From positions 1 through 43,726 of the forward strand of contig CALXUV010000001.1 in assembly GCA_944391815.1 (NCBI GenBank): DNA of 43,726 nt, in the 5' to 3' direction. Below, piece after piece: positions 14,116-24,217 of this stretch (position 1 is the stretch's first letter; every line of letters starts with the position of its first letter). Below the pieces are notes generated by a model, which worked only from the letters and a program-made list of their open reading frames with translations, was not told the DNA's origin and ran no database searches. A program made the translations under genes and the position numbers. This DNA is from an uncultured Clostridia bacterium. Lineage in GTDB: Bacteria > Bacillota > Clostridia > Oscillospirales > CAG-272.

Positions 14116-14814
14116 ATGTTCTGGTCAAAACACAAACGTAGTAAAAATATTGAAGCTTCGTCTGAAAACGAGTATAAAACAGAGAATGCCGAGGAAAATG
14201 AAGCCGACATGTCAGTCCTGACTGACGAGGCAGAAGAAAGTGTAAGCGAAGAGGAAATTCTCAGTATTCTTGAAAATGATGACGATTCGGAAGAGACCGA
14301 TGCCGAAGAAATACAAAAAGAAGAAAAGGTAACAAAAATACTCACTTCAGCCGACGAAATGATCGAATTTATTAATTCAAAGAGTGTCGGCAGAATACAG
14401 TACATGAGAAAGTCTGATTTTGAAGCTTTTGAAATAGGAGATGCTCACCTGAGAATTGCGGAAATCTGGGGAAGCGTTTCTATGGGAAGAGAGTATAAGC
14501 CGAGCGAATATGCAAGAATTATGCTTGCGGCAGAGGTACGGGCAAATCCGGAAAATTTTTATATTCTTCCGTCGCTTTCGGATGAGGAAATAGAAAAATC
14601 GATTTTGACATTTTGTGACGAACATTATGCCGTAAATGGCAAAAAATATCTGAAAGACAGGCATAAGTTTGCAAAACTTGTTAAAGAAAACGATGATGAA
14701 GAGGAATGGCTTAGTTTCAACCGTACTCTGACAGCAAAAAAAGTTCTTGACTTTTGCAAGGAAAACAATATCGAATTTTTAAGTGAGGAGATCAGTTCCG
14801 AAGATGAACAGTAA
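14116..14814 (+). CDS. Acidic protein of unknown function
   Basis: A 232-residue protein that I do not recognise. Residues 1-12 are basic (MFWSKHKRSK). Residues about 15-75 are a low-complexity, very acidic stretch rich in Glu, Asp and Ser, probably disordered. Residues 75-225 are mixed helical, with no transmembrane segment or signal peptide. It has a good SD and its own promoter. Its stop overlaps the start of the next gene (membrane LRR protein) by 11 bases, so the two are translationally coupled and may work together. An adaptor or a cytoplasmic partner of the membrane protein is possible, but no function is supported by sequence. Confidence 0.75.
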   Translation: MFWSKHKRSKNIEASSENEYKTENAEENEADMSVLTDEAEESVSEEEILSILENDDDSEETDAEEIQKEEKVTKILTSADEMIEFINSKSVGRIQYMRKSDFEAFEIGDAHLRIAEIWGSVSMGREYKPSEYARIMLAAEVRANPENFYILPSLSDEEIEKSILTFCDEHYAVNGKKYLKDRHKFAKLVKENDDEEEWLSFNRTLTAKKVLDFCKENNIEFLSEEISSEDEQ

Positions 14815-16291
14815 CGAGTCTGCAACCGCTACCGTTAAGGATGAACCGGTAATAAAGAAAACTCAGCTTTGCAAGTGCGGAAAAAAAGCAGAGTTTATAA
14901 AGGACTACTGGGTGACCGAAAACAAGCTTCTCAAAGAAAAAGACAGCGAGGACACAATAACAAGAAAACTCGAAAATGCCTGCGGAATACTGAGGAGAAG
15001 ATACTGCGGTGCCTGTCTCGGAAAAATCGCAGCAAACCAAAGAAGAATAAACAAAAAGCTCAATTTCCGGATAGTTATATCGATAATGATACCTTTACTG
15101 CTCGGTACTGCGCTTTCGGCAGTTTCATATTTTGTCCTTGACGATAAATCATCGCTTTTCAACGTGATCGGACTTTCAGCTCTGACAGTTGCAGCCGCTG
15201 TAATACTTCCGCTCATTCTTTCCGGAGCTCAGAGAAAAAGAAAAAAGGTAGAGCGTGGAATTTACAAAGATACAGCAGCCGTCGAAGCAATTCTCGACTC
15301 ACTGAATTTTGCTTTGAGTGATCCTTCTCTGCTGAAAGAGCTTCCTTCTACTGATGTAATCGTTGACGGTGACGGACGTGTAAATTACGAAATGGAAAGA
15401 TCCGGCTACTATATGAAGGTGCGGTATGACGGAAAAATCAGTATGGAGCCGATGCGTCAGCGTATACTTTATCCGTTCTCAGGAGATTCAGAGTACATAA
15501 AGAAAACCTACACAATTGCCGGACTGCTTGATGACAATATAAGAAGCAAGAAGATAAAGGAGCAGTCGGATAAGGATTTTGATATACGCGGAGGAGTGCT
15601 TCACAGATACAGCGGACTTGCGGTTGAGGTAAAGATTCCTGACGGAGTTACCAAAATAGCTGTCGGCGCTTTTAAGAACAGTAAAAACTGCGAAAAGATC
15701 ACAATGCCTGACACAGTAACAGAAATAGAAAAAGAAGCATTTCTTTCCTGTCCTGTCGGTGATATCCGTTTTTCTGTAAACCTGAAATCGATAGGTTCGT
15801 TTGCTTTCTATAAAAGCGGAATAGCTTCGGCTGTTTTGCCGGAAGGTCTGGAAAAAATAGAGGACAATGCTTTCGGTGAATGCTATGCTTTACAACAGCT
15901 TTCGGTACCCGGAAGCGTCGCAAAGATTTCCGAGGCTGCCTTCAAGAACTGCGTGTCACTGGAAAAAGCTGAGCTGGCTGAGGGAATCGAATCGATTACC
16001 GACTATGCATTCAACGGTTGCCGGGCGCTTAAAGAAATAAATGTTCCGGAAGGCTGCTATGAGCTTGGGAATTTTGCTTTTGAAGGTTGCGCAGCATTGG
16101 AAAAGGTGTTTTTACCGGATACCATTCAGTTTGTGGGGGGCAGAGTTTTTGAGGGAGACGTTCATCTCTGCATCTACGGCAGGAAAAATTCATTTGCTGA
16201 AAAGTATGCGGCAGAGCAGAGGCTGCGCTTTTCGCTCATCAACGACGAAAAATTCAAATTAAAGAAAACTCATAAAACAAACGGCAGATAA
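14804..16291 (+). CDS. Membrane-anchored leucine-rich-repeat (BspA/LRR_5-type) protein with Cys-rich N-terminus
   Basis: A 495-residue protein. Near residues 22-25 there is C-K-C-G, and near 68-71 C-G-A-C, a spacing that could make a zinc-ribbon-like site. Two hydrophobic helices follow (about 88-110 and 118-140), then a basic segment (R-K-R-K-K) suggesting a cytoplasmic return. From about residue 255 there are BspA-like LRR units of about 23 residues (for example V-T-K-I-A-V-G-A-F, L-E-K-I-E-D-N-A-F, I-E-S-I-T-D-Y-A-F). By the positive-inside pattern both ends may be cytoplasmic, unlike secreted BspA proteins. The ATG at 14804, with GAGGAG upstream, is preferred over the GTG at 14783. A protein-interaction role is likely; the partner is unknown, possibly the upstream acidic protein. 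Confidence 0.8.
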   Translation: MNSNESATATVKDEPVIKKTQLCKCGKKAEFIKDYWVTENKLLKEKDSEDTITRKLENACGILRRRYCGACLGKIAANQRRINKKLNFRIVISIMIPLLLGTALSAVSYFVLDDKSSLFNVIGLSALTVAAAVILPLILSGAQRKRKKVERGIYKDTAAVEAILDSLNFALSDPSLLKELPSTDVIVDGDGRVNYEMERSGYYMKVRYDGKISMEPMRQRILYPFSGDSEYIKKTYTIAGLLDDNIRSKKIKEQSDKDFDIRGGVLHRYSGLAVEVKIPDGVTKIAVGAFKNSKNCEKITMPDTVTEIEKEAFLSCPVGDIRFSVNLKSIGSFAFYKSGIASAVLPEGLEKIEDNAFGECYALQQLSVPGSVAKISEAAFKNCVSLEKAELAEGIESITDYAFNGCRALKEINVPEGCYELGNFAFEGCAALEKVFLPDTIQFVGGRVFEGDVHLCIYGRKNSFAEKYAAEQRLRFSLINDEKFKLKKTHKTNGR

Positions 16292-16475: not shown

Positions 16476-17327
16476 TCAGATGTTTCCGCTGATTTTCAGA
16501 ATTCCGACGCCAGGTGTGACATTTATCAGCCCGGTCGATTTATCCTGATCGTAAGTTGCGGCGGCAACCGTCAGTTTTCCTGAGATTGTCATGAAGTCGC
16601 CCGTTTCCGGATTATACTGATAGTCAACATCTTTGGTAAGCGTCTGCGAATTGTAAGTTACCGTTATATTTTTCAGAATCGGATCGAATATATCGGTTAC
16701 AACAACTTTGTCTTCGGGTTCGGCAGCAGTATTGCCGTTGTTTTCGATAACAAAGGTGTAAGTCAACTGACCGTTTTCCGCAACGCTTGACGGACAGATG
16801 GCTTTGCTTATTGAAAGTATAGCACTTTCTTCCGCTTTGACAGAAGATGAAACTGTTATATCGGAAATATTGCTTCCGCAGATGACAGCGGTGTTTACTA
16901 TTTCCGCACCTTTATCTAACGGCGCAAAACGGTTGACCTGAGCCTGATAAATCAGAAGCGCATTTCCGTTTGCGGGAATGCTTAAATTGCAAATTTCAAG
17001 CGGGGAATAAGATTTTATTTCAGGAGCAGGTTGCAGTATACCGTTTATAAATAGTTTAAGGGAATTGTTTATATAAGTGAGCGGTACGAGTTCCGTCGAA
17101 CAGAAGTTATACTTTCCCAGATTATCGGTTATTTTTATATCGGAATACGGCATATTTCCGGAATTTACAACCGAAATTACGTAGGTCAGTATTTCATTCT
17201 GTGTATAAGAAGCGGAAACAGCGTATTTGTCTGCACTCAGTACCTCAACGATTTCACCCGTGACCACATTTGAATTCGTAACGGTATTGTTATAATATAA
17301 GGTAGCCTGATTATAAAATACAGCCAT
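16476..17327 (-). CDS. DUF11-domain repeat protein
   Basis: A 283-residue protein with two DUF11-like beta-sandwich units. Unit one spans about 20-135 (typical L-T-Y-V-I-S-V-V-N-S-G-N near 47-58 and I-T-D-N-L near 66-70). Unit two spans about 170-280 (L-T-Y-T-F-V-I-E-N-N-G-N, then V-V-T-D-I-F-D). DUF11 units are normally found in secreted or cell-wall proteins. Here there is no signal peptide, no sortase motif and no membrane segment: the chain begins M-A-V-F-Y-N-Q-A-T-L directly. It has a sound SD (AAAGGAA) and its own promoter, so it does not look like a truncated gene. Function unknown; a non-classically exported or structural protein is possible. Confidence 0.75.
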   Translation of the reverse strand: MAVFYNQATLYYNNTVTNSNVVTGEIVEVLSADKYAVSASYTQNEILTYVISVVNSGNMPYSDIKITDNLGKYNFCSTELVPLTYINNSLKLFINGILQPAPEIKSYSPLEICNLSIPANGNALLIYQAQVNRFAPLDKGAEIVNTAVICGSNISDITVSSSVKAEESAILSISKAICPSSVAENGQLTYTFVIENNGNTAAEPEDKVVVTDIFDPILKNITVTYNSQTLTKDVDYQYNPETGDFMTISGKLTVAAATYDQDKSTGLINVTPGVGILKISGNI

Positions 17328-17452: not shown

Positions 17453-17507
17453 TTAACACAGAGTTAACACAGCTGAGATTTCACAGTTAACACACGGGTG
17501 ATAAAAT
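17453..17507 (+). promoter_or_regulatory. Pho-box promoter of the pst operon
   Basis: Direct TTAACA repeats at 17453-17458 and 17464-17469 (11-base period), a third at 17487-17492, and a TTCACA at 17480-17485. The Gram-positive PhoP box is TT(A/T/C)ACA repeated with about 5-base gaps, so the first pair is an exact match. A -10-like TAAAAT sits at 17502-17507, and no good -35 is present, as expected for an activator-dependent promoter. The likely activator is the PhoP encoded at the end of this operon. Confidence 0.8.
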
Positions 17508-17537: not shown

Positions 17538-18395
17538 ATGAAAAAGAAAATAGTGGCAATACTGATGACATGCGTAACAGTGCTTATGCTGTTTTGCAGT
17601 TGCGGCGGTGGAATGAGCGGTATAACGGTAATAACCAGAGAAAAGGGTTCCGGAACAAGAAGCGCTTTCATTGAGATCACCGGAATCGAAGCTAAGAACG
17701 AAGAGGGAACAAAAGTCGACAGAACAATGGCTGAAGCTGAAACACAAAGCAGCACGGCGGCAGTAATAACCAGTGTAAGCAATACGAAAAATGCCGTAGG
17801 TTATATATCTCTCGGATCTCTTGACGATACGGTAAAAGCAGTAAAGGTTGACGGAGTAGAAGCAACTGTTGAAAACGTCAAAAACGGAACATACAAGCTT
17901 GCAAGACCTTTCAATATAGCTTACAAGGGAGAGCTTGATGCTGCAACTCAGGACTTTATTAACTTCATAATGAGCTCAAACGGACAGAGCATAATAGAAG
18001 AGGACGGCTACATCAAGATAAAAGACGACGCAACCGCCTACACTTCTTCAAACCTTAGCGGAACAGTTAAAATAGCAGGTTCGTCTTCGGTTTCTCCGGT
18101 TATGGGCAAGTTAAGAGAGGCTTATATAGCTCTCAATCCCAATGTATCGATAGACATCCAGACAAGTGATTCTACAACAGGTATGAATGAAGCTGCGGAA
18201 AAGCCCGGTACCATCGGTATGGCTTCAAGAGAAGTAAAGCAGAGTGAACTTGACAAAGGACTTACCGGACTTACCATAGCTAAAGACGGAATTGCGGTAA
18301 TAGTAAATAAAGAAAACGAATGTTCCGACCTTACACTCGAGCAGATAACAAAAATCTACATCGGTGAAGTAAAAGAGTGGTCCGGACTTAACTGA
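17538..18395 (+). CDS. pstS: Phosphate-binding lipoprotein PstS, circularly permuted
   Basis: A 285-residue ABC-transporter binding protein. A signal peptide (1-21) ends at Cys22 (F-C-S-C), so it is a membrane-anchored lipoprotein that captures phosphate. The domain order is unusual. Residues 29-162 are what is normally the second half of PstS (I-T-V-I-T-R-E-K-G-S-G-T-R near 29-41, A-V-G-Y-I-S-L-G-S-L near 86-95, ending G-Y-I-K-I). Residues 175-285 are the normal first half (V-K-I-A-G-S-S-S-V-S-P-V near 177-188, then S-D-S-T-T-G-M, and D-G-I-A-V-I-V-N). Both sets of phosphate ligand loops are present, so a working circular permutant is likely. The SD is AAGGAG. It is the first gene of the pst-pho operon. 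Confidence 0.9.
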   Translation: MKKKIVAILMTCVTVLMLFCSCGGGMSGITVITREKGSGTRSAFIEITGIEAKNEEGTKVDRTMAEAETQSSTAAVITSVSNTKNAVGYISLGSLDDTVKAVKVDGVEATVENVKNGTYKLARPFNIAYKGELDAATQDFINFIMSSNGQSIIEEDGYIKIKDDATAYTSSNLSGTVKIAGSSSVSPVMGKLREAYIALNPNVSIDIQTSDSTTGMNEAAEKPGTIGMASREVKQSELDKGLTGLTIAKDGIAVIVNKENECSDLTLEQITKIYIGEVKEWSGLN

Positions 18396-18408
18396 CGACA
18401 AAATACTG

Positions 18409-18451
18409 AAAGGGCCGGCGCAGCAAACAGAACAGCGCGCTGGTCCCTTTT
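18409..18451 (+). terminator. Imperfect hairpin between pstS and pstC (possible attenuator)
   Basis: AAAGGG...CC.GGCGC pairs with GCGC.GCTGG.TCCCTTT, with one bulge, and is followed by four T at 18448-18451. It probably ends part of the transcripts or protects the pstS 3' end, giving more PstS than membrane components. The short T run makes full termination unlikely. Confidence 0.5.
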
Positions 18452-18473
18452 GCCGTACGGGGGAAAGCAAAGA

Positions 18474-19397
18474 ATGGCAGTAATTAAAGAGAGAGTAATG
18501 AAATACGTGTTTATGCTTACCGCTACAATAAGCATTCTTGCGGTACTGCTTATATGCTATTTCATTTTTGCAAACAGTATTCCCGCGATTAACGAAATAG
18601 GAATAATAAATTTCCTGTTCGGGAAAATATGGGATCCCGATCAGGATCTTTACGGAATACTTCCGATGATAATCGGTAGTATCTATGTAACAGCGGGAGC
18701 TATAATTGTCGGGGTTCCGATAGGACTTATGAGTGCGGTTTTCATGGCGTTTTACTGTCCGGCAAAAATATACCGTCCGCTTAAATCGGCAATAGAGTTG
18801 CTTGCGGGAATACCTTCGGTAGTTTACGGTTTCTTCGGACTTGTAGTAATTGTGCCGGTGATACAGAAGATATTCGGAACCAGCGGAAAAGGAGTCCTGA
18901 CGGCATCTCTTATGCTCGGGATGATGATTTTGCCTACAATAATCAATATAAGTGAATCGGCTCTGCGAAGTGTACCGACAAGTTATTACGAAGGAGCACT
19001 TGCACTTGGTGCTACGCACGAAAGAAGCGTTTTCAGCGCAGTTTTTCCTGCCGCAAAATCCGGAATACTCGCTGCTGTGATACTCGGAGTCGGAAGGGCA
19101 ATCGGAGAAACCATGGCAGTTATACTTATCGCAGGAAATCAGACAGTTATACCCAAAAGTATTCTGTCCGGAGTCAGAACTATGACGGCGCACATAGTTA
19201 TGGAAATGGGATATGCGCAGGATCTTCACAGGGAAGCACTAATAGCAACTGCGGCGGTACTATTCGTCTTTATTCTTATTATAAATCTTTGTTTTTCCGC
19301 AGTTAAATCGAGTTCAGAGCGTGAAGGCAAAAAAAATAAAAAGAAAATAAGTACAGAAAAAGGCGACGGAAAGGAGGCGACCGGCAATGAAGGCTGA
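18474..19397 (+). CDS. pstC: Phosphate ABC transporter permease PstC
   Basis: A 307-residue inner-membrane permease with about six transmembrane helices, the first at about 10-32. The cytoplasmic coupling loop E-G-A-L-A-L-G-A-T (about 172-180) is the EAA-like motif that contacts PstB. The segment L-A-G-I-P-S-V-V-Y-G-F-F-G is strongly conserved in PstC/PstA. The ATG at 18474 is preferred over the TTG eight codons earlier because a GGGGGAAAG SD precedes it. The C-terminus is long and lysine-rich. Its stop overlaps the pstA start by 11 bases, so the two are translationally coupled. Confidence 0.95.
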   Translation: MAVIKERVMKYVFMLTATISILAVLLICYFIFANSIPAINEIGIINFLFGKIWDPDQDLYGILPMIIGSIYVTAGAIIVGVPIGLMSAVFMAFYCPAKIYRPLKSAIELLAGIPSVVYGFFGLVVIVPVIQKIFGTSGKGVLTASLMLGMMILPTIINISESALRSVPTSYYEGALALGATHERSVFSAVFPAAKSGILAAVILGVGRAIGETMAVILIAGNQTVIPKSILSGVRTMTAHIVMEMGYAQDLHREALIATAAVLFVFILIINLCFSAVKSSSEREGKKNKKKISTEKGDGKEATGNEG

Positions 19398-20268
19398 AAC
19401 ACAGAACAGGGGAATTAATTATGTAAGTCTGAAACAGAAACTCAGCAATTACAGAAAGCATAAAGTTTCTTTTGTGATAATGCTTTTGGTGTTCGGATGT
19501 ATGCTTATAACTCTGCTTTCCGTTCTTGTTCTTATACTTTACATTCTGATAAAAGGAATACCAAATCTGAGACCGTCGCTGTTTTCACCGGTTTATACAG
19601 AGGATAACGTTTCTATGTTGCCGGCTATAATCAATACAGTTATAATGACATTGATGTCACTCGGAGTAGCGGTTCCGATAGGAATATTCACAGCAATTTA
19701 CCTTGTCGAATACGCAGCTAAGGGAAATAAACTTGTCAAAGTAATAAGGATAACTGCTGAAACTCTTTCGGGAATCCCGTCGATAGTATACGGACTTTTC
19801 GGATATCTGTTTTTTAATCTTGCGCTTAAATTCGACTATTCACTGCTTGGCGGTGCGCTTACGCTTTCAATAATGATCCTTCCTGTTATAATCAGAACAA
19901 CCGAGGAGGCTTTGCTCGCAGTTCCCGATTCCTACCGCGAGGGTGCTTTCGGACTCGGTGCAGGAAGGCTGAGAACTGTTTTCAAAATAGTACTGCCCTC
20001 AGCGGTGTCCGGAATATTTGCCGGTGTTATTCTCAGTATGGGAAGAATAATAGGCGAGACAGCGGCGCTCATCTACACTTCCGGAACAGCAACCAACATA
20101 CCGAAAAACGTAATGGGCTCGGGCAGAACGCTGTCTATTCATCTTTATGTGCTGATGAACGAAGGACTGCACATAAATGAAGCGTATGCTACTGCTGTCG
20201 TCATACTTGTTTTTGTACTGATACTGAACTTTCTCAGCGGCAAAGTTGCTAAAAAATTAAAAAACTGA
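19387..20268 (+). CDS. pstA: Phosphate ABC transporter permease PstA
   Basis: A 293-residue membrane permease that pairs with PstC to form the phosphate channel. Visible features: an N-terminal transmembrane helix at about 27-52, the conserved L-S-G-I-P-S-I-V-Y-G-L-F-G segment, and the coupling loop R-E-G-A-F-G-L-G-A. Its SD (AAGGAGG, 19371-19377) lies inside the pstC end. A gap of about 120 bases, with no obvious terminator, separates it from pstB. Confidence 0.95.
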   Translation: MKAETQNRGINYVSLKQKLSNYRKHKVSFVIMLLVFGCMLITLLSVLVLILYILIKGIPNLRPSLFSPVYTEDNVSMLPAIINTVIMTLMSLGVAVPIGIFTAIYLVEYAAKGNKLVKVIRITAETLSGIPSIVYGLFGYLFFNLALKFDYSLLGGALTLSIMILPVIIRTTEEALLAVPDSYREGAFGLGAGRLRTVFKIVLPSAVSGIFAGVILSMGRIIGETAALIYTSGTATNIPKNVMGSGRTLSIHLYVLMNEGLHINEAYATAVVILVFVLILNFLSGKVAKKLKN

Positions 20269-20387: not shown

Positions 20388-21137
20388 ATGGAAAAATTCA
20401 GAATAGAAAATTTGGACCTGTACTACGGTGATTTCAAAGCACTGAAAAACGTAAATCTATCCATTCCGGCAGGCAATATTACGGCTTTTATCGGGCCATC
20501 GGGATGCGGAAAGTCGACACTTCTCAAATCTCTCAACAGAATGAACGATCTGATTCAGGGATGCAGAATAGAGGGTAAGATCACACTTGACGGCGAGGAT
20601 ATATACGGAGATATGGATACCGGACACTTAAGAAAAAGAGTGGGAATGGTGTTTCAGAAACCGAATCCTTTCCCGATGAGTATTTACGATAACATAGCAT
20701 TCGGTCCGAGAACTCACGGCATCAGATCCAAAGTAAAACTTGACGAAATAGTTGAGCGGTCGCTCAGAAACGCCGCAATCTGGGACGAAGTCAAGGACAG
20801 ACTGAAAAAAAGCGCACTTGGCCTTTCCGGAGGACAGCAGCAGAGACTTTGTATAGCCAGAGCTTTGGCGGTAGAACCTGAAGTTTTGCTTATGGATGAG
20901 CCGACATCAGCTCTCGATCCTATTTCAACATCGAAAATTGAAGAGCTTGCTCTTGACTTAAAAGAAAAATATACTATAATAATAGTGACGCACAATATGC
21001 AGCAAGCTGTAAGAATTGCAGACAAAACAGCATTTTTCCTGCTCGGTGAGGTAATAGAGTACAGCGATACCGAGCAAATGTTTGATACACCGAAAGACAA
21101 GAGAACCGAAGATTATATTACCGGAAGATTCGGCTGA
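20388..21137 (+). CDS. pstB: Phosphate ABC transporter ATP-binding protein PstB
   Basis: A 249-residue ATPase driving phosphate import. It has Walker [10 protein letters not shown] (33-41) followed by the PstB-typical [11 protein letters not shown], a Q-loop ([10 protein letters not shown]), the signature L-S-G-G-Q-Q-Q-R, Walker [14 protein letters not shown] and the switch His in V-T-H-N-M. The length and motifs are standard. It ends 19 bases before phoU. Confidence 0.97.
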
Positions 21138-21156
21138 TTTTAACGGAGGGGAAAAA

Positions 21157-21816
21157 GTGAGAAAGAATTTTGATAGTCAGCTTGATACGCTTAGCACTGA
21201 GCTTATAACGATGGGGGCAATGTGTGAGGAAGCCATTTCGTATTCGTCGAAAGCTTTGCTTGAACACGAGGAAAGCCTGATAAAAAAAGTTTTCGAGACA
21301 GACAGAATGATCGATGAAAAAGAACGGGAAATCGAGGGTAAATCAATGAGAATGCTGCTTCAACAGCAGCCGGTAGCAAGAGACCTGAGAACTATATCTG
21401 CGGCTCTCCGTATGATTTCCGATATGGAAAGAATAGGGGATCAGGCAGCGGATATAGCGGAAATATCACAGTATGTCACCGAAAACAACCTGCTTGTTAA
21501 GGTTCATATCGCTGAAATGTCCGAGCATGCAATCAAAATGGTGAAAGACAGCGTCGATTCATTTGTTCGGAAAGACATTGAAACAGTAAAAAATGTCATT
21601 TCGCACGACGATATAGTGGACGGATTGTTTTTGCAGGTAAAATCGGAGCTTACCAAGGTTATAAGTGAAACTCCGGAAAAAGCGACTTTGTGTCTTGACC
21701 TTCTGATGATTGCAAAATATCTTGAAAGGATAGCCGATCACGCAGTAAATATAGCAGAATGGGTGGAGTATTCCATCACAGGAGTACATGTCACGGATGA
21801 GGTGCCGCGCGTCTGA
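21157..21816 (+). CDS. phoU: Phosphate signalling regulator PhoU
   Basis: A 219-residue all-helical protein made of two PhoU repeats. Their metal-binding motifs are visible as M-E-R-I-G-D-Q-A-A-D (first repeat) and L-E-R-I-A-D-H-A-V-N (second). PhoU links PstB to the PhoR kinase and represses the regulon when phosphate is plentiful. The start is taken as GTG at 21157 because a GGAGGGG SD (21145-21151) precedes it; the in-frame ATG at 21082 lies inside pstB and has no SD. Confidence 0.93.
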   Translation: MRKNFDSQLDTLSTELITMGAMCEEAISYSSKALLEHEESLIKKVFETDRMIDEKEREIEGKSMRMLLQQQPVARDLRTISAALRMISDMERIGDQAADIAEISQYVTENNLLVKVHIAEMSEHAIKMVKDSVDSFVRKDIETVKNVISHDDIVDGLFLQVKSELTKVISETPEKATLCLDLLMIAKYLERIADHAVNIAEWVEYSITGVHVTDEVPRV

Positions 21817-21837: not shown

Positions 21838-22524
21838 ATGATATATTTCGTTGAAGATGACAATAATATAAGAAAACTTGTAAGTTACGCACTTAACAGC
21901 AATGGAATAGAGGCGGTTGGATTTGAACTCCCGTCTGAATTCTGGAAAAAAATGAAAGAGCAGCTCCCTTCGCTGATTCTTCTTGATATAATGTTGCCCG
22001 AAGAGGATGGAATAGCTATACTGGAAAAACTGAAAAAAGACGAATTTACAAATAAAATTCCGGTCATAATGCTTACGGCGAAAACTTCAGAATATGACAA
22101 GGTTTACGGACTTGACAGCGGTGCTGACGATTATATTACAAAACCATTCAGTATGATGGAGCTTATAGCGCGTATTAAGGCTTTGCTACGCAGATCAGGT
22201 TTTTCTCCGTCTGAAACAGAAAAGGAAGAATACAGTGTTAACGGACTGAGAATATCTGTACCGCAGCATACGGTGACAGTAGACGGCAAACCGGTAAATC
22301 TTGCTCTGAAGGAATTTGAGCTTTTGCTTGCAATAGTCAAAGCCGACGGAAGAGTTTGTACGAGAAATTATCTGCTCGAAAATATCTGGGGTTATGAATT
22401 TGACGGAGAGAGCAGGACTGTTGACGTACATATCAGAAAACTCCGTGCAAAGCTCGGCGAGGACGAAAAAGAAGAGAAGATAATCGAAACGGTAAAAGGA
22501 ATCGGGTATAAACTAAAAAAATAA
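21838..22524 (+). CDS. phoP: Phosphate response regulator (PhoP/PhoB type)
   Basis: A 228-residue OmpR-family regulator. The receiver domain (1-118) has acidic residues E5/D6/D7, the phosphoacceptor Asp in L-L-D-I-M-L-P (about residue 45), T-A (79-80) and the Lys of T-K-P-F (about 100). The C-terminal winged-helix domain (about 130-228) has L-K-E-F-E-L-L and a terminal G-I-G-Y-K-L. It most likely binds the TTAACA repeats in front of pstS and so controls its own operon. SD: AAGGAG. It is followed after 25 bases by the kinase. Confidence 0.93.
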   Translation: MIYFVEDDNNIRKLVSYALNSNGIEAVGFELPSEFWKKMKEQLPSLILLDIMLPEEDGIAILEKLKKDEFTNKIPVIMLTAKTSEYDKVYGLDSGADDYITKPFSMMELIARIKALLRRSGFSPSETEKEEYSVNGLRISVPQHTVTVDGKPVNLALKEFELLLAIVKADGRVCTRNYLLENIWGYEFDGESRTVDVHIRKLRAKLGEDEKEEKIIETVKGIGYKLKK

Positions 22525-22549: not shown

Positions 22550-24217
22550 ATGAGTAAAAAAATATTCCGCTCAATTTGTCTGGTGGCGTTAGCGGTTCTG
22601 ATAGTTTCAGTTCTGTTTTTATCCGGAATAATGACAAGAGCCTTTGAAAAGCAGGTGATGGCGGAAATGCAGACGGAGACCGAATATCTGATTTACGGAT
22701 ATAAAATGCAGGGAAGCACATTCCTCGATACCGTAAAGGATGTAAACAAAAGAATAACCGTTATTTCGCCTGACGGAACTGTGCTTTACGACAATAAGGC
22801 CAACAGCGACGAAATGGAGAATCATCTGGAAAGAGAAGAGGTTCAGTCTGCTATTAAAACCGGGTCTGGATTTAGCAGCAGATTGTCTCCCTCCCTGTCT
22901 GAAAAAACAATATATTACGCAAAACTTATGGAAGATGGCAATATTATGCGACTTTCAGTTACTGAGAGTATTATTTATCTTCTTATAAAAGAAAGCATGC
23001 CGGCAGTGATATCAACAGCAGTGCTTACCGTAATAGCAGCGGCGCTTCTTGCCCACAAAGCCGCTGAAATAATAGTCAGACCTATAAATAATATCGATCC
23101 GGAAAACCCTGATGTAAATGAGGTTTATGATGAAATATCACCGCTCGTCTATAATCTTAATAAACAGAAAATGCTGCTGAAAAATCAGATCGAGGAAGCA
23201 CAGAGAAAGCAGAAAGAGTTTTCTCTGATTACCGACAATATGAAAGAAGGCATCATTATTGCCGATAGTCAAAAAAGAATTCTTTTTTATAATCCTGCGG
23301 CTTTGCACTTGCTTCAGAGCAGTAAACCTACTGATAATACGTCTGTATATTCGCTGAACAGAAGCGAGGTGTTCAGAAATGCGGTTGAAAAAGCGTTAAA
23401 CGGTGAAATGAGCGATGAACTGTTAAAAACCGAAAACGGGATCTGCCGTGTTATCGGAAGCCCTTCCTCTGAAGCAACCGGAAGCGTAGGAGCAGTAATA
23501 ATTGTAATGGATGTGACAGAGATCGAGGAAAGAGAAAAGCTGAGACGGGAATTTACTGCAAATGTTTCGCACGAACTGAAAACTCCGCTTACTTCAATTT
23601 CAGGTTTTGCTGAGCTTATGAAAACCGGAACCGTCAGTTCAGGAGACGTAAAAGAATTTTCAGGAGTTATTTACGAGGAAGCGCAAAGGCTTATCACTCT
23701 TGTCAATGATATAATAAAACTATCAGAGCTTGACGAAAATAAAATGAGTGAGAATTTTGAAGCGATTGATCTCAAAGAAATTGCTGATGAAGTAAAAACT
23801 GTTCTTGCGCCATACGCCGCAGAAAAAAAGATAAATTTTGAAGTAGACGGCGAAAATCTCAGAATCTGCGGAAACAAACGGCTTATTTTTGACATTGTTT
23901 ATAATCTGTGCGACAATGCAATCAAGTATAATAAAACGGGGGGCAATGTTTTTGTCTCAGTAAAAAAAGAGGAATCAAAAGTAATCCTTACCGTTCGCGA
24001 TACCGGAATCGGAATCCCGCAAAAGGATACCGAAAGGGTATTTGAAAGGTTTTACCGCGTAGATAAAAACAGATCAAGAGAAATCGGCGGTACAGGTCTT
24101 GGCTTGTCAATTGTCAAACACGCTTGCGCAGTTAACGGTGCGGAAATAAATCTTAAAAGCAGAGAGAACGAGGGAACGGAAGTAACCGTGCTTTTTAAGG
24201 CTTATGACGCCGAATAA
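22550..24217 (+). CDS. phoR: Phosphate sensor histidine kinase (PhoR type)
   Basis: A 555-residue kinase. Transmembrane helix 1 (about 5-27) is followed by an extracytoplasmic segment (about 28-145), helix 2 (about 148-170), a linker coiled coil and a PAS domain (about 225-320, starting S-L-I-T-D-N-M-K-E-G-I). The HisKA domain has the phosphorylated His in N-V-S-H-E-L-K-T-P-L-T, and the HATPase domain has N-L-C-D-N-A-I-K-Y-N, D-T-G-I-G-I-P and G-T-G-L-G-L-S. This is the classical PhoR architecture. It ends the operon; a strong terminator follows at 24475. Confidence 0.93.
   Translation: MSKKIFRSICLVALAVLIVSVLFLSGIMTRAFEKQVMAEMQTETEYLIYGYKMQGSTFLDTVKDVNKRITVISPDGTVLYDNKANSDEMENHLEREEVQSAIKTGSGFSSRLSPSLSEKTIYYAKLMEDGNIMRLSVTESIIYLLIKESMPAVISTAVLTVIAAALLAHKAAEIIVRPINNIDPENPDVNEVYDEISPLVYNLNKQKMLLKNQIEEAQRKQKEFSLITDNMKEGIIIADSQKRILFYNPAALHLLQSSKPTDNTSVYSLNRSEVFRNAVEKALNGEMSDELLKTENGICRVIGSPSSEATGSVGAVIIVMDVTEIEEREKLRREFTANVSHELKTPLTSISGFAELMKTGTVSSGDVKEFSGVIYEEAQRLITLVNDIIKLSELDENKMSENFEAIDLKEIADEVKTVLAPYAAEKKINFEVDGENLRICGNKRLIFDIVYNLCDNAIKYNKTGGNVFVSVKKEESKVILTVRDTGIGIPQKDTERVFERFYRVDKNRSREIGGTGLGLSIVKHACAVNGAEINLKSRENEGTEVTVLFKAYDAE

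Follow-up and report, generated by a model that had tools for sequence, protein, structure and literature searches.

Permuted binding proteins in general are described in the open PubMed Central (PMC) literature. Bacillus subtilis OpuAC and Escherichia coli ProX, which bind another ligand, are likewise related to each other by a permuted order. TpMglB-2 (Tp0684) from Treponema pallidum is a circularly permuted glucose-binding lipoprotein; most of its homologues occur in treponemes and Gram-positive bacteria (PMC4990184, accessible part). The window analyzed here, a stretch of 43,726 nucleotides from an uncultured Clostridia bacterium (contig CALXUV010000001.1), encodes a phosphate-binding lipoprotein, PstS. 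As with TpMglB-2, a binding protein held by a lipid tether has here been circularly permuted in nature. The Treponema protein differs in being of type I, in its ligand glucose, and in a cut that makes a fourth inter-lobe crossing necessary (PMC4990184, accessible part), whereas the cut in the window PstS appears to lie within one lobe. The canonical PstS of Bacillota (PDB 4q8r), covered by the NCBIfam model TIGR02136, shares both halves, the phosphate-loop motifs and the operon place with the window PstS, but carries the halves in the reverse order. PstS2 of Streptococcus pneumoniae (SP_2084, PDB 4h1x) has the same half order as the window PstS and belongs to a different phylogenetic branch. 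Neither a description of a PstS permutation nor a mention of '4H1X' was found among the papers listed in searches of the open PMC literature; subscription papers or permutation databases may have a description. The main text of an article on the pneumococcal Pst2 system contains no word beginning with 'permut' (PMC4913102). One PDB entry thus already contains the PstS permutation, which was not found described in the open PMC papers searched.

The gene pstS (17538..18395, plus strand) is an intact open reading frame (ORF) coding for 285 amino acids. When PDB sequences were searched with phmmer, the protein matched the canonical chains 4q8r, 4gd5 and 1twy in two swapped pieces, not in the normal order. 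Residues 22 to 162/163 correspond to the second half of these chains, and residues 173-175 to 282-284 to the first half. The swap had been proposed in an initial annotation of the sequence with boundaries at 29-162 and 175-285, which proved correct within a few residues. TIGR02136 yielded 181.6 bits in two stretches for the protein as found, below the cut-off of 206.6. With the residues put in the usual order, 208.1 bits were obtained in one stretch, covering profile positions 2-294 of 295. Since the re-ordered sequence clears the cut-off, the half order explains the initial failure, an example of how whole-length annotation models can miss permuted proteins. Pfam PF12849 matched in two stretches with 103 bits (cut-off 27). 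PDB 4h1x gave a single end-to-end match in the order C-terminal half, N-terminal half, and the structure model of the window PstS agrees with the 4h1x fold at 1.8 Å. This match and the single TIGR02136 stretch after re-ordering support the view that the old termini are joined, as the initial annotation had stated. Both phosphate-loop motifs, R34-E-x-G-S-G-T40 and G181-S-x-S184, are kept; their role is taken from general knowledge of PstS proteins. Across 45 aligned permuted PstS, there is no variation at R34, E35, G37-T40, G181, S182 and S184, in agreement with the predicted retention of both contact loops. The window PstS is a real natural circular permutation with swapped halves.

Misassembly, which the initial annotation had already considered, has a negligible probability as an explanation, and so have wrong binning and a damaged gene. 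The same order occurs in other genomes, including the complete chromosome of the isolate Ruminococcus bicirculans (L081), and in the crystal structure of the homologue 4h1x. One other genome (G002) has the same half order with 90% identity to the window PstS. In the set of relatives, a match spanning both halves was present in 11 of 39 genomes (own genome included) and any match in 22 of 39; some of the remaining matching genomes show the usual two pieces. Among the matches listed for a phylum sample of 398 genomes, at least 271 genomes had some match, at least 13 (own included) the spanning permuted type and at least two more a tandem form; divergent permuted forms may be missed in these counts. 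In a search of genome contigs, the best 80 of 545 confirmed relatives were all permuted, which is no frequency estimate because a permuted query ranks permuted matches first. Holders among these best 80 are Blautia species, Ruminococcus bicirculans, Peptoniphilus faecalis and Intestinimonas butyriciproducens, besides metagenome-assembled genomes (MAGs) labelled, perhaps wrongly, as Roseburia, Oribacterium, Faecalibacterium, Treponema, Avidesulfovibrio and Accumulibacter. The expectation of similarly ordered homologues in other gut Clostridia was borne out for Clostridia, but was too narrow in view of S. pneumoniae PstS2 and the last three MAG labels. Two half-profiles, applied to every ORF with 60 or more codons in the loci L001-L130, called 107 CN, 24 NC and 2 NCNC orders. 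Three CN calls stem from copies of the window gene; L027, L070 and L094 contribute two calls each. The 24 NC calls indicate that the method detects the usual order where present. In L027, L070 and L094, a second permuted PstS ORF is located beside the main one.

Judged from its sequence, the window PstS is very probably a functional phosphate-binding protein of a complete pst-phoU-phoPR operon, with a circularly permuted fold of presumably single origin. The function is supported by its kin PstS2, which belongs to the pneumococcal Pst2 system. This system is active in phosphate uptake and restrained by PhoU2 (PMC4913102, accessible part). The window pstS is the sole PstS-like match in the genome (94.5% complete), in which no PHO4 carrier (PF01384) was found. 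Pst need not be the sole phosphate route, as a member of the Na/Pi cotransporter family PF02690 is present. Phosphate would be bound between two lobes as in the usual PstS and handed to PstCA. The structure model contains long strands at residues 122-130 and 242-256, which may form the two hinge crossings. One lobe would then comprise residues 27-121 and 257-285 and the other residues 131-241, while the usual PstS splits the other lobe. Binding and closing would be the same as in the usual PstS, and the tether alone would switch the lobe.

The permutation may well have arisen once and been inherited together with its own permease, because the PstC proteins encoded beside permuted PstS form one clade. 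Copies of the window gene (L101, L102) were removed before tree calculations and spacer counts, and PstC counts cover those loci in which the PstC match reaches 200 residues. In a careful PstC tree (59 rows, rooted at midpoint for drawing only), all 37 PstC beside permuted PstS are located on one side of a branch with a support of 100/98. This branch was present in 200 of 200 bootstrap trees and separates them from 20 canonical and 2 tandem rows. The lineage trait suspected earlier is upheld as far as PstC shows. Identities to the window PstC are 46.6-100% (median 65) for 100 permuted loci, own locus included, versus 37.5-58.5% (median 50) for 20 canonical loci. Among the 80 loci from genome contigs, 79 contain pstC (L092 has none), in 76 of these within 600 bp of pstS on the same strand. 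The exceptions are L038 and L070 with a larger distance and L055 with pstS on the strand opposite to the rest of the pst operon. A separate pstA is present in 76 of the 80 loci.

Several points weigh against the overall reading of the window PstS. For PstS trees, permuted rows were restored to one order and thinned by identity to 39. The first quick tree (69 rows, 39 permuted) contained four changes of order. Omission of six rows with long branches or poor half matches (L017-L020, L027_perm2 and 1twy) reduced this to one change with a support of 87 in a second quick tree (63 rows). A careful tree of the same 63 rows contained two changes; one clade of permuted rows was not rejected by the approximately unbiased test (p-AU 0.39), yet appeared in only 8% of the bootstrap trees. 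By itself, the PstS tree argues only weakly for a single origin. The position of 4h1x among the permuted PstS rows is poorly supported, and the PstC tree contains no 4h1x row. Tandem copies of PstS group together in the first PstS tree, with canonical proteins as nearest other rows. The proposed lobe assignment draws on secondary structure and general knowledge of PstS topology.

Of 15 genomes in their class, the two that have a tandem form are G378 and G338, which belong to one genus. Each encodes PstS in the order N-C-N-C as a single open frame, 531 and 544 codons long, respectively. L114 (1099-2682) and L115, from two genomes of one genus, are pst loci with a single-frame tandem PstS in unpermuted order (N-C-N-C). 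The window PstS aligns to the middle of the G378 tandem (43% identity, 261 columns); at the outer copies, the halves of the window protein align a second time. At the fusion, 2-3 residues separate the half-profile matches. Duplication/deletion is a named model of circular permutation (PMC2395249, accessible part), and the N-C-N-C tandem is the intermediate type expected by this model. A tandem duplication and fusion of pstS would have been followed by the in-frame loss of the first N-half and the loss of the last C-half. The permuted pstS would then have travelled onward with its own pstC. Direct descent of the permuted group from these tandem forms is disfavoured, since the rows nearest to them are canonical for PstS and likewise for PstC. 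They therefore represent a parallel case showing that the route is open, not remains of the ancestral event.

The permuted order may be a neutral accident, a reading we hold to be somewhat the more probable side of even. PstS termini would be close, and duplication and trimming would have generated an equally good protein, fixed by drift and spread with a successful operon. The 2-3 residues at the tandem fusions indicate that the termini can be close, and the model retains the 4h1x fold. That the permuted form persists among widely diverged holders and is inherited together with PstC may point to something beyond drift. Alternatively, selection may act on the tether: which lobe bears the lipid anchor would influence how the protein opens, how far it reaches or how it docks on PstC as opposed to PstA, and one PstCA lineage would be suited by the permuted form. 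Permuted PstS accompanies one PstC clade, and an anchoring advantage was raised for TpMglB-2 by its authors, who saw no obvious mechanical one (PMC4990184, accessible part). Selection on the tether is nevertheless a tentative and rather doubtful explanation. A regular expression rule, not a trained predictor, detected a lipobox in 89 of the 105 permuted ORFs other than L101 and L102. One of the remaining 16 (L058) is cut by a contig end, so that 15 of 104 permuted proteins with a complete start lack a lipobox. A lipobox is present in both tandem forms and in 20 of 20 scorable canonical rows; four further canonical rows, in which the motif is missing, were dropped. Anchor spacers are similar in length, with a median of 17 in 89 permuted and 18.5 in 20 canonical proteins. 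In either order, the tether precedes a strand leading into a phosphate loop. Seven PstC columns mark the permuted clade (37 permuted versus 22 other rows), two of them in the EAA-loop region, which is cytoplasmic. None of the seven forms a clear docking patch, judged by eye, and a docking signature in PstC was rejected. Neither the members without a lipobox nor the missing docking signature in PstC supports the tethering rationale for PstS. The initial annotation had proposed a moved anchor and an altered docking on PstCA. The anchor is indeed placed ahead of the other phosphate-loop strand; the change in docking found no backing in these observations.

The lipid anchor is not a constant of the permuted group. 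Five of the 15 lipobox-less PstS originate from Blautia records or MAGs (L034, L035, L072, L073, L090); these have an A-x-A type signal peptide. In the single-membrane cell of Blautia massiliensis, no PstS match was found besides the lipobox-less permuted one. Three others are from MAGs labelled as diderms (L076, L077, L078), in which a free periplasmic binding protein is normal. The wider proposal is that permuted PstS and PstCA form a separate phosphate-importer lineage, tethered by and perhaps docking through the opposite lobe compared with the usual PstS. It would be a type II counterpart of the Treponema glucose lipoprotein, with some members devoid of a lipid anchor. This proposal is unlikely as a whole. 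With two chain orders of one protein, PstS offers a natural experiment on the tether position in a binding-protein-dependent importer, including a PstC lineage that tracks the permuted form and a present-day tandem of the predicted kind.

Table 1. Features of the pst-pho locus in the window.
Feature	Position	Strand	Evidence or remark
Pho-box-like direct repeat TTAACA-N5-TTAACA	17453..17469	+	ends 68 bp 5' of pstS ATG; putative function
pstS, circularly permuted phosphate-binding lipoprotein, 285 amino acids	17538..18395	+	ORF, PF12849, phmmer, model, TIGR02136
Signal peptide and lipobox-like Cys22, residues 1-22	17538..17603	+	sequence; Cys invariant in 11 rows of alignment
Usual C-terminal half, placed first, residues 27-163	17616..18026	+	phmmer, 45-row alignment
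R-E-x-G-S-G-T phosphate loop, residues 34-40	17637-17657	+	45-row alignment
Linker from old C-terminus to old N-terminus, residues 164-174	18027..18059	+	alignment
Usual N-terminal half, placed last, residues 175-285	18060..18392	+	phmmer, 45-row alignment
G-S-x-S phosphate loop, residues 181-184	18078-18089	+	45-row alignment
Strong predicted RNA hairpin, pstS-pstC gap	18408..18451	+	folding of 18390-18480
pstC permease	18474..19397	+	ORF, permease domain, conserved place; start codon uncertain
pstA permease	19387..20268	+	ORF, permease domain, conserved place
pstB ATPase	20388..21137	+	named from sequence; conserved operon position
phoU	21082..21816	+	named from sequence; conserved position; real start probably further in
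phoP/phoB-type response regulator	21838..22524	+	named from sequence; conserved position
phoR-type sensor kinase	22550..24217	+	named from sequence; conserved position

Six residues lie between Cys22 and the first strand of the window PstS. The gap between the half-profile matches has a median of 10 residues (8-26) in permuted rows. Upstream of pstS, copies of TTAACA start at 17453, 17464 and 17487 (the third at 17487-17492). The pair listed in Table 1 is the sole exact TTAACA-N5-TTAACA in the window; with up to two mismatches, six occurrences compare with a shuffle mean of 6.88, i.e. chance level. The region 18390-18480 folds with -30.8 kcal/mol (z -2.62), and 1 of 200 shuffles was as low. 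The hairpin in the pstS-pstC gap possibly sets the PstS level above that of PstCA; such hairpins are suspected of the same expression role in other importer operons. The upstream neighbours encode a DUF11 protein (16476-17327, minus strand) and a BspA-type leucine-rich repeat protein (14783-16291).
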